Assembly (NCBI GenBank): GCA_947040455.1
Contig: CAMRBN010000001.1
Span: 62,001-126,000 of the forward strand
Direction of reading: 5' to 3'
DNA: 64,000 nt
Origin: an uncultured Mycoplasma sp.
Lineage (GTDB): Bacteria > Bacillota_I > Bacilli_A > Mycoplasmatales > Metamycoplasmataceae
A program made the translations under genes and the position numbers. The notes below the pieces were generated by a model that was not told the DNA's origin, made no database searches, and worked only from the letters and a program-made list of their open reading frames with translations. Shown here piece by piece: positions 45,098-62,889 of this stretch; positions within the stretch are counted from its first letter, which is position 1, and every line of letters begins with the position of its first letter.

Positions 45098-45173
45098 TGG
45101 CAAGGGTGACAGGACTCGAACCCACAACATGCGGGGTTGAAGCCCGCTGTTCTACCAATTGAACTACACCCTT
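45098..45173 (-). tRNA. tRNA-Trp (TCA), UGA-reading
   Basis: Acceptor AAGGGTG/CACCCTT, anticodon loop CTTCAAC with TCA, encoded CCA. This tRNA decodes UGA as tryptophan and explains the interrupted standard-code frames across the window. Confidence 0.96.
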
Positions 45174-57942: not shown

Positions 57943-59772
57943 ATGAATTATTTAGTTATAGTGGAGTCACCCAACAAAGAAAAGACAATTAAGAAGTATC
58001 TTGGAGATGAGTATGAAGTTTTAGCTTCTGTTGGTCATATAGTTAAAATGTCAACTTCTGGCGAAGGAAGATTGGGAATAGATTTTGAAAATTGAGAACC
58101 TAAATATTCAATTGAACCAAGCAAAAAAGATGTTGTGGAAAGATTAAAAAAACAAGCTAAGAAAGCAAAAATTGTTTATATAGCAACCGATTTAGACCGC
58201 GAAGGTGAGGCTATTGGTGATAATTTAGTTGAATTTTTAAACATTAAAGATAAATACAAAAGAATTAAATATAATGAAATTACCAAAGAGGCTGTTTTAA
58301 ATGCAATTGCAAATCCAACTATCATTGATGAAGATTTAGTTAAGGCGCAAAAATCAAGAAGAATGCTAGATCGAATTATTGGTTTCAAATTAACTAATTT
58401 AATCAAAACAAAATTATCAAATTATCCAGTTGCTCCAACTGCAGGTAGAGTTCAATCTATTGCATTAAAATTAGTAGTTGATCGTGAAAATGAAATAAGA
58501 GCTTTTATTCCTTTTAAATATCACTTAATTGATGCTGTGATTAACGAAGAAATAACTGCATCTTATTTTAATCCTGATAATAAAGAAATTGACAAAAAAT
58601 GAATTATTCCTGAAAAAATAGAAGAAATTTACAATTCTTTAAAAGGACCTTTAGAAGTAGTTGAAATAACAACTACGATTAAAAATGATGCTAGCATAAC
58701 TCCCTTAAAACAAGCTATTTTATATAGAAAAGCAGATATGTCTTCCAAAGCTACTCAATCAGCTTTACAAAGACTATATGAAGGTTATGGAGATGGAGGT
58801 CTTATTTCTTATCCTCGTACTGATTCTACAAGATTATCACTTCCTTTTTTAGTAGGTGCACAATCTTACATTAAAAGTGTGTTTGGACCTGAGTATGTTT
58901 CAAAAACCATTAAAGGTATTGCAGGTGATCAAGATGCCCATGAAGCTATTAGACCAACCGATATCGGTTTGACTCCAGAAAAAGCTAATGCCAAATATTC
59001 TTTATCATCTTCAGAAAATAAAATATATTCTTTAATATACTATACAACCATGCAAGCTATTATGACAGTTCCTAAAAGAGAAATATTGAGATACAACCTT
59101 ATGAATTCAGGTCATTTATTCAAATTGTCATCTTCAAAAGTTATTTTTGATGGATATTTGAAACTTAGAGGATATGAAAATTCAAAAGAATTACCTAAAT
59201 ATGAAAAAGGTCAAATGATTGATGTAAAAGAATATATAAACACCGCTCACGAAACAAAACCGCCTGCAAGATATAATGATGGATCTCTAATCCAGAAGTT
59301 AGATGAAATAAAAGTTGGTAGACCCTCTACCTTTGCCACAACAATTAGTAAAATTGTTGATCGACAATTTGTTGAAAAAGAAGGGAAAGCCTTAAAAGCA
59401 ACTGAATTTGGAGAAAAAGTTATCATAAAATTAATAGAAGGATTTCCGAACGAGATTACTGAAGGGTATACCGCTAGTGTAGAGGCAGATTTAGATTTAA
59501 TAGCTGAAGGTAAGCTTGATTATAAAATTACTATGGAACAATTTTGAAATAGATTTAATGCATCTTATAAAACTGCAGAGCTAACATTAGAAAAAACTAT
59601 TTTAATGCCAAAATTTGTTGGTGAAAATTGTCCTGAAGATAAAGGTGAATTAATATTTAAAAATTCTAGAAGCGGAGAAGAGTTTGTTGGATGTAATAAT
59701 TTTCCTGAATGTAAATTTACAAAAAATCCTAAAGCTAAAAAAAGATTTGCTTTTCTGAAAAAAATTAACTAA
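57943..59772 (+). CDS. topA: DNA topoisomerase I
   Basis: Relaxes negative supercoils. 609 residues: [19 protein letters not shown] and [17 protein letters not shown]; active-site Tyr in [10 protein letters not shown]. One C-terminal zinc ribbon remains (G-C-N-N-F-P-E-C), where the first half is C-P-E-D rather than C-x-x-C, so one Cys is missing. It has a likely leaderless promoter and a strong terminator after it. Confidence 0.97.
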
Positions 59773-59841: not shown

Positions 59842-60963
59842 TTATTTTTGTTTAATTTTTTCTTGAGGATTTTCTAAAATTAATGTTCTAGTCGCTTCAT
59901 CTTTAAATAACTTTTTAGATTCTTGTACTTGTGATAATATATTTTTGATATGCTCTTCAATATCTTCAGATTCTAAAATCATTTTTGATTCATCAACATT
60001 TAAAGCTAAAATAGTAATTTGACTATATATATCAATATCAAATTCACCAATGTATTTACATATAATGAATTCCTTGTCTTCTCCAATAATAGAGGTTAAA
60101 ATATATCTAATTCTATCAATCATTTTTTTAGTTATATAAGGGGTTTTAATTGTTACTATAAATGTCTTCGAGGCTTCAAATGAACCATGAAATATTGGGT
60201 TTGACAACGCTTGAACAATTGACAAATCTAATCAATCAATTTTAGAGTTTGAAATTCCGATGGTAGGAATTATCTTATTTACAAAATTTTTATTGTTTGC
60301 ATAAAATAAAGATTTAATTAATGAAAAGTGATCAGGATTTAAATCAGGTTCTACAAATGGAACTACAAATGATTCAATTAAATCTAAAACAAATCTAGAA
60401 ATAAAATGCTTTCTATTAACTAAGTTGGCTTCTTCATAAGCTTCAATAATTGTTGATTCAGCAATCGGAATAAAAGGTTGAGAAAACTTAAGCGCTTCTT
60501 TCTTTAATCTATTATAAATTTTATCTTCTGAATTACTGGTAATAAAGTTTTCAACTACACAATGAAAAGAAAATACATCATAACGATTTAATATATACGC
60601 TAATTCAATAACATAAGAAAGCATAAAAGAATCTTGTGATTTATACAAAATGATTGCTAAATCAGCATTTGCAACAATATCTTTTATTGCTTCAATATTA
60701 TTTTGGAAAAATACTGGAGCAGGAATAATTTTTTCATTTTCCCTAGGAGAATTTCACGATAAAAATGATTCTTCAAATTTATTTTTACCATTTGGGTTAT
60801 TAGTAAAATTATTTTCTGTTCCTATCTTAAAGAATCTTGTGTTGGCTCTAATAGATTTATGAATATTTTCAAAATTACCTAATTCAGTATCTGAAAAATA
60901 TATAATTACAGTATTTGCAACATAATCTTTTTTGACATTTTTTACTTCTTTTTTATTAAACAT
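59842..60963 (-). CDS. Degenerate FtsZ-like (tubulin/FtsZ fold) protein
   Basis: 373 residues. From about residue 245 the pattern Q-A-L-S-N-P-I-F-H-G-S-F-E-A-S-K-T-F-I-V-T-I, then I-G-E-F-D-I-D-I-Y-S-Q-I-T-I-L-A-L, closely follows the FtsZ C-terminal domain (A-I-S-S-P-L-L-E-x-S-I-x-G-A-x-x-x-L-x-x-I ... R-V-T-V-I-A-T-G). Earlier, N-A-D-L-A-I-I-L and F-x-C-V-V-E-N-F match the GTPase domain order, but Y-K-S-Q-D-S-F-M stands where G-G-G-T-G-T-G should be. So it probably cannot bind GTP in the usual way. Start ATG 60963 with AAAGGACG. A canonical ftsZ is not in the window. Confidence 0.55.
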
Positions 60964-61061
60964 ATAATCCGTCCTTTTCAATGCTATCATAATTATTTTA
61001 ATACAAAACAATGATAAATTATGTTCTAATTATAAATTAAAATTCATTATTAGCATTAATT

Positions 61062-61988
61062 TTATTTAATTTTATTTCCAATTACTTTACCCGCTATTGA
61101 ACCATCGGATGCCGCAGTAACTATTTGTCTAATCTTTTTTTCTCTAATATCTCCAATGGCATAAATACCACTTTCATTAGTTTCCATATCTTCATCAGTC
61201 ATTATGAAACCTTTTGAATTAAAGATATCAAGGTGAGAAGCAAAAGAAGCCACTGGTAAAAATCCTATATAAGGAAATAAAGCATTTGCCTTCATATCAA
61301 CTTCTTTACCTTCAATATTAACCTTTATTTCTTCTAAATTAGGGGTTCCATTTAATTTAACAACAAAAGAATTGTAGTAAAAATTAATGTTTTTAATCTT
61401 AGTTGCATTTTCTAAAATAACTTTTTCTGCAATAGATTCACTATCTTTGATAAAAATATTTACTTCACTAGCTAATGAAGATAAATAAATTGCTTCTTCA
61501 ATAGCGCTATTTCCACCACCAATTATTGCAGCAGGTTTATCTTTATTAAAGGGTCCATCACAAATAACACAATAAGAAACGCCTTTATTATCATATTCCC
61601 TAATACCTTCTACATCATCTGGAATTCTATTTATCATTCCAGTTGCAATAACAATTGTTTTACATTTTAAAATAGTATTGTTTTCTAATATAACTTCTTT
61701 ATCTAAAGCGGATTTCGATTCTATTTTAACAACATTACCATATTTATGTTCAACGCCAGCTTCTTTTGTGTGTTTCAACATTCTCAAGGCTAATTTTGCT
61801 CCAACAATTTCTTCATCACCTATTCAATTTTCAATTCTAAATGTTGAAGTCATTTTTCCACCAGGAGCCCCTTTTTCAATTACCAATACCTTTAAATTAG
61901 CTCTTGCAGCATAAAGAGAGCAATTTAACCCACCTGGGCCTGCCCCAATAATTATTAAATCATATATTTCTGATTTATCTTTATTCAT
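61062..61988 (-). CDS. trxB: Thioredoxin reductase
   Basis: NADPH-flavoprotein of 308 residues that reduces thioredoxin. FAD motif G-A-G-P-G-G-L-N, redox pair C-V-I-C-D-G, NADP-binding G-G-G-N-S-A-I-E-E-A, and C-terminal G-D-I-R-E-K. Start ATG 61988 behind AGAAGTGA; overlaps the lgt stop by 8 bases. Confidence 0.97.
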
Positions 61989-62889
61989 TAATTCACTTCT
62001 TACCAACGGCTACCAATTGTGCTTTTTGTTGGGTTTTCAAAATATATTTTTTGGTTTTTCCAATAATTTCAATATTGTATAATTTAAATGATTTTTTATA
62101 GAAATAAAATACTAATGCCATTCCCAAAAGAATAGATATAACAGAAAGAATTGTATAATAAGCGTAAGATTCTTCACGAAGAGGTTCCATTGAAACTCTT
62201 GTCAATCCATATCAAATTAAATATAAAGCTCCTGGAGTACCTGGTTTAGTTAAACCTAAATTTAATACTACTCATACTATTAATACATAACCAATAAGCG
62301 ATGAAATAGATTCATATAAAAATAACGGTGCTCTAAACTCTGGAGTTCCACCTGCTTCTGAAGCAATAAACATATGTGAAGAAATGAATGGACCTAATCA
62401 AGAAACTTCTCATTCTTGAACTATTTTTCCATAAACTTCATGATTGGCAAAGTTCCCTCATCTCCCAATTGCTTGACCAACTAAAACGGTTGGAAGAATT
62501 ATTCCAAAAGTTTTCCTGATATCTAATACATCTTTATGTCTTCTTATAAATAAAAGATTAAGAATTGTAGGAACTATTACACCACCTTGGATTGATAAAC
62601 CACCTTCTCAAACTGCATATCAAGCAGAACCCGGGAAGGGATCAGTAGGATTATATATTAATCTTTCAAAAATATAAAATAATCTTGCACCAAGAATAGA
62701 AGTAGGGATAGTGATAATAATTATTTTTAAAAGTAAATCTAATGGATAATTTTCTTTCTTTCAAAAATAAGCAACCGTCACAATAGAAATTAATATACCT
62801 ATGATAATACAAAACGGATACAAAGGAATAAGGCTATTCATAGAAACACCTTGAACATAACCATCAGAAATTTTATTCAAGTTTCCCAT
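61981..62889 (-). CDS. lgt: Prolipoprotein diacylglyceryl transferase
   Basis: Attaches diacylglycerol to lipobox Cys, needed for lipoproteins such as those at 22122 and 29041. 302 residues, about seven helices, W-E-G-G-L-S-I-Q-G-G, the signature G-R-W-G-N-F-A-N-H-E, and C-terminal basic region. The last residues W-I-N-E follow a TGA. It starts inside hprK (17-base overlap). Confidence 0.95.

Follow-up and report, generated by a model that had tools for sequence, protein, structure and literature searches.

The gene p42 (gli42) encodes an orthologue, near certainly, of P42/Gli42 of the Mycoplasma mobile-type gliding machinery and features a predicted FtsZ fold from which the GTP-binding loops are lost. 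The gene lies at 59842..60963 on the minus strand of the window—the whole stretch of 64,000 nucleotides that was analyzed. With a probability of about 0.6 for the statement as a whole, P42 is read as an FtsZ-fold protein that serves the gliding machine on its motor side, as an adaptor or scaffold working independently of nucleotide. What had been taken for an orphan pseudo-FtsZ hence becomes a named gliding component. If the reading is true, an FtsZ fold has been recruited, without its nucleotide, into a motility machine.

The p42 gene and its family

The p42 gene, stop included, encodes 373 residues in genetic code 4. Its ATG lies at 60963, and the ends of the frame match 59842-60963 exactly. 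Two TGA codons stand for Trp (W70 and W244), and the frame is open only in this reading—table 11 splits it into three ORFs. A ribosome-binding-site-like AAAGGA, identified by reading of the sequence, is found 8 bases ahead of the ATG (60972..60977, minus strand). Directly upstream follows a trxB-like gene (61062..62006, minus strand; 271 bits with TIGR01292, which is under the cut-off of this model), the usual neighbor of p42 within the genus of the source genome as judged by a comparison of neighbors across genomes. Further upstream and on the same strand as p42 lies lgt (61981..62889, minus strand), encoding prolipoprotein diacylglyceryl transferase, and a topA-like gene, named by reading as DNA topoisomerase I, is convergent to p42 (57943..59772, plus strand). 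In the source genome, p42 stands alone between trxB and topA and is unlinked to gli123, gli349, and gli521. The frame is retained in 14 further genomes at 22–94% identity. The dN/dS ratio amounts to 0.08–0.09 against the closest relatives, which marks P42 as a functional protein under purifying selection, and reaches up to 0.32 inside the genus.

P42 matches the NCBIfam family NF045859, "gliding machinery protein P42" (glide_P42), at 415.1 bits (cut-off 280) over positions 1–364 of 365, and all 15 members compared are over the cut-off. The M. mobile counterpart is MMOB1050, which is treated as a gliding component of not clarified localization and is translated together with Gli123, Gli349, and Gli521 (PMC7052211). 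The earlier note on this DNA, which knew of no described role for such a protein, was mistaken in this respect. The likeness to P42/Gli42 of M. mobile comprises the full-length match to the family model and a source genome with a type-2 gliding motor; the difference lies in the genomic context, since p42 of the source genome adjoins trxB instead of gli349, gli521, or gli123, which were not found there. The family, its gliding name, and its proposed FtsZ ancestry are known already, and the protein of the source genome is an additional member.

The window also carries a tRNA with anticodon TCA on the minus strand (45098-45173), called as tRNA-SeC by ARAGORN. It is more likely a Trp tRNA reading TGA, which fits code 4 better.

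An FtsZ fold without the GTP-binding site

Using PSI-BLAST, Tulum et al. 2014 (J Bacteriol 196:1815) reportedly proposed a common ancestor of P42 and FtsZ. The relation is visible only by profiles or structure, as Pfam searches with P42 of the source genome do not detect FtsZ_C and sequence searches of the PDB give no significant match. Likewise, the FtsZ model TIGR00065 (cut-off 295 bits), run on the source genome at E up to 1, finds the canonical ftsZ only and misses P42. In a comparison of profiles, P42 aligns to 21 mollicute FtsZs over 336 columns with P = 2.2e-8. This alignment scores 58.5. Of 30 FtsZ alignments with shuffled columns, none exceeds 20.9, and the reversed alignment reaches 15.6. 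Even the single P42 sequence matches the C-terminal domain of genuine FtsZs, with E down to 5e-6.

The AlphaFold model of P42 of the source genome has a pLDDT of 83 and a pTM of 0.83 and features the two-domain FtsZ fold. In a Foldseek search, FtsZ crystal structures make up 50 of the 50 best PDB matches (best E 8.9e-15), with TM-scores of 0.66–0.78 by target length among these 50. A second model—of P42 of genome G012, only 24% identical to the former—reaches a pTM of 0.86 and again returns FtsZ crystal structures as its 50 best PDB matches (best E 1.2e-16). The N-terminal domain (residues 11-180; 60424..60933, minus strand) carries the fold of the FtsZ GTP-binding domain without the loops, as judged by AlphaFold, Foldseek, and loop mapping. 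It is followed by a central helix region corresponding to H7 of FtsZ (residues 181-225; 60289..60423, minus strand), in which the model places a helix at residues 184-204, and by the C-terminal domain (residues 226-350; 59914..60288, minus strand), whose FtsZ C-terminal domain fold is supported by sequence matches, model, and profile alignment and which is the better conserved half. In a tree of both families, P42 forms a single clade with the source genus as one group inside, and the branch to FtsZ is saturated. The FtsZ fold of P42 over its full length, like its P42/Gli42 family identity, is as good as certain.

The claim of the earlier note that an FtsZ-like protein lacks its GTP-binding signature is borne out by the profile comparison, by both models, and by the loops themselves, which were mapped through the profile alignment of 15 P42 members with 21 FtsZs and are lost from 15 of 15. 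At the T1 position (residues 20-29; 60877..60906, minus strand), IYFSDTELG replaces GVGGxGNN. At the T4 position (residues 108-116; 60616..60642, minus strand), the non-glycine stretch that the note had seen in place of the G-G-G-T-G-T-G loop is KSQDSFMLS, replacing GMGGGTGTG, and none of the 15 members has a glycine at the positions of this signature. The T1–T6 signature residues of FtsZ are missing from every member. At the position of the T7 synergy loop, NLDFADV (residues 209-215; 60319..60339, minus strand), the Asn of NxDxxD is retained, and all 15 members have L, S, I, R, or K instead of the second catalytic Asp. P42 of the source genome contains 7 glycines versus 25 in the FtsZ of the same genome. 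A hidden GTP loop or a frame error is ruled out by this glycine count, the lack of any motif, the retention of the frame in 15 genomes, and the low dN/dS. By eye, the C-terminal anchor peptide is missing as well: P42 ends with ENPQEKIKQK as compared with the FtsZ consensus DDDLPxFLR. P42 hence resembles FtsZ (TIGR00065) and the tubulin/FtsZ superfamily in its predicted fold and the order of both domains and differs from FtsZ in the signature residues, the second T7 Asp, and the anchor peptide. Because the T1–T6 loops and this Asp are lost, P42, judging from its sequence, should not bind and hydrolyze GTP, or polymerize with it, in the manner of FtsZ.

P42 could still hydrolyze NTPs within the gliding machinery, as a part of the motor or as a regulator, with a remodeled, noncanonical site on the FtsZ fold. 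Recombinant P42 reportedly showed NTPase activity in the work of Ohtani and Miyata 2007, although it has no Walker motif, and D101, E169, R184, N209, and K217, which are among the residues invariant across the 15 members, could build another site. The reported hydrolysis of NTPs also counts against the scaffold reading, as a nucleotide-free scaffold leaves it unexplained. However, all glycine-rich phosphate and base loops are gone along with the second T7 Asp. In addition, the machinery is already equipped with an F1-like ATPase motor, the ATPase kinetics of which match gliding (PMC6935860). An NTPase role is therefore considered rather unlikely.

P42, the gliding motor, and the leg proteins

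The gliding-motor cluster of the source genome lies outside the window, within G000:C1:140141-156825, and comprises an MMOB1620-like gene, 1630, 1640, 1660, and 1670. The families MMOB1630, 1640, 1660, and 1670 are over their cut-offs (G000:C1:150678-155962), approximately 28 kb from p42 on the same contig; the MMOB1620-like gene is named by position and is conserved in both genera that carry P42. Among 117 genomes, MMOB1660, the motor alpha subunit, is over the cut-off in 18. P42 is found in 15 of these 18 and in 0 of the 99 others and thus goes with the motor, not with the legs. The association has a Fisher p of 3e-16 counted by genome, a value inflated by kinship, and of 0.011 counted by genus. 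Since P42 is confined to two genera—the source genus and a second one, g2, with four genomes including G012, G024, G033, and G040—it may rest on few evolutionary events. The motor-bearing genomes without P42 are G004 (84% complete), G017, and G020, and the motor alpha subunits of the latter two are 42–44% identical to that of the source genome.

In g2, Gli349 is present at full length in four of four genomes. It is absent from 12 of 12 genomes of the source genus. Matches to the Gli349 model in the source genome are nearly all short, lie around model positions 2660-2760, and were read as repeat cross-matches; weak matches to this model also occur in four control genomes. In g2, the protein taken as Gli123 has 1128–1231 residues and is encoded directly upstream of p42. 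It owes this name to its size and position, and the one such protein tested had no match among the NCBIfam family models. Gli123 is absent from the source genus. As for Gli521, the source genome has no ORF longer than 2698 codons, with about 7 kb of the genome unread or masked, and the Gli521-sized protein of G012 has no BLAST match in it. NF045860, with 4534 positions, is presumably the Gli521 model. In G012, gli349 is followed by a reading frame of approximately 3937 residues at the gli521 position and then by the Gli123-like gene and p42.

Two points are new. One is genomic evidence that P42 can be parted from FtsZ and the known leg genes, while none of the 99 genomes without MMOB1660 over the cut-off has P42; the other is a genus that combines gliding motor and P42 in the absence of any known leg. 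Since this genus keeps P42 though Gli349 and Gli123 are absent, a role on the motor side is favored, and P42 should be searched for there. P42 would have a structural role at the intracellular type-2 (F1-like, MMOB1660/1670) gliding motor, as its adaptor or scaffold, and would act independently of nucleotide. It would use its FtsZ-type surfaces for contacts between proteins, for instance by joining one motor unit to the next or to the membrane side, and would serve gliding rather than division. The separate scaffold that the earlier note had offered as one option is hence the most likely reading, with the role and the partner contacted by P42 being inferred.

Alternatively, P42 could form the surface leg unit with Gli123, Gli349, and Gli521 and might there be a partner on the membrane side or in assembly. 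This would agree with the cotranslation in M. mobile (PMC7052211) and with the gene order: p42 of M. mobile and of G012 adjoins surface-protein genes and not motor genes, and Gli123-like–p42 pairs occur away from gli349 at G033:C2:16903-21560, G040:C5:21199-25856, and G024:C22:35850-40747. Large lipoproteins encoded behind the motor genes of the source genome could, moreover, be substitute surface partners. Yet P42 is under purifying selection although the genus lacks Gli123 and Gli349 and the source genome lacks a Gli521-sized protein. By reading, P42 shows neither a signal peptide nor a membrane segment, and an FtsZ-fold protein would be expected in the cytoplasm. Membership in the leg unit is accordingly regarded as quite unlikely.

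The genes behind the motor cluster encode a 150-residue lipoprotein-like protein, a lipoprotein of 1121 residues with similarity to leucine-rich-repeat adhesins, and then proteins of 468, 494, and 1080 residues. The last of these genes resembles one within the motor cluster of g2, and the gene order is kept in close relatives. The large lipoproteins could be substitute legs or surface partners. We tentatively consider a variant of the M. mobile-type machine without the known legs, in which motor and P42 are kept, P42 is a core scaffold on the motor side, and the motor might power another surface apparatus, for example these lipoproteins; this is a possibility rather than the expected outcome. 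The source genus in this way points to genomes in which a gliding motor may work with different legs.

Two genomes carry a motor that is far diverged: G017 (G017:C41:2367-5735) and G020 (G020:C1:193228-202984) feature alpha and beta subunits over or near the gliding models, and both are without P42 and without Gli349.

P42 of G033 and G040 shares 23% identity with that of the source genus. Both gli42 and gli123 are reported absent from M. agassizii and M. testudineum (PMC7052211). If G033 and G040 are these species, the two genes were probably missed because of divergence, and the pairs of Gli123-like protein and P42 may correct the published absence.

P42 and canonical FtsZ

The source genome has an intact, canonical ftsZ with the motif GMGGGTGTGAS (G000:C2:99786-100763), so a replacement of FtsZ by P42 is ruled out there. 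G033 (96% complete) has P42, and a search with the FtsZ model does not find ftsZ in it. M. mobile is listed as ftsZ-less (PMC4164004). Conversely, most ftsZ-bearing relatives are without P42 in searches with both profiles, and weak matches to the P42 profile elsewhere are genuine ftsZ genes wherever both were listed. P42 therefore neither replaces nor requires FtsZ.

These occurrences bear on the suggestion of the earlier note that a pseudo-GTPase of this fold could cap FtsZ filaments or regulate them. The fold itself and the canonical ftsZ of the source genome would suit such a role. There is also a precedent in ARC3 of plant plastids, a diverged FtsZ-like protein whose role is not ring formation itself, likened to P42 here by description only, which acts on FtsZ (PMC4593956). 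In contrast to ARC3 with its part in plastid division, P42 is found where FtsZ is not and tracks the gliding motor. Because P42 occurs where ftsZ is absent, capping of FtsZ is very unlikely as its main role. The lost GTP site might speak for an ftsZ copy in decay, or for a functionless protein that resembles FtsZ by chance; this is barely credible given a frame kept in 15 genomes at dN/dS 0.08–0.32, a curated family, and the shuffled and reversed controls and two models that exclude chance similarity to FtsZ.

Two observations concern FtsZ itself. Compared with related FtsZs, that of the source genome has an unusually long branch in the tree, with 1.19 changes per column. In genome G031 (contamination 3%), contigs C1, C2, and C4 carry five matches to the FtsZ model, four of them over the cut-off—a multiplication of ftsZ that is unusual for a mycoplasma relative.
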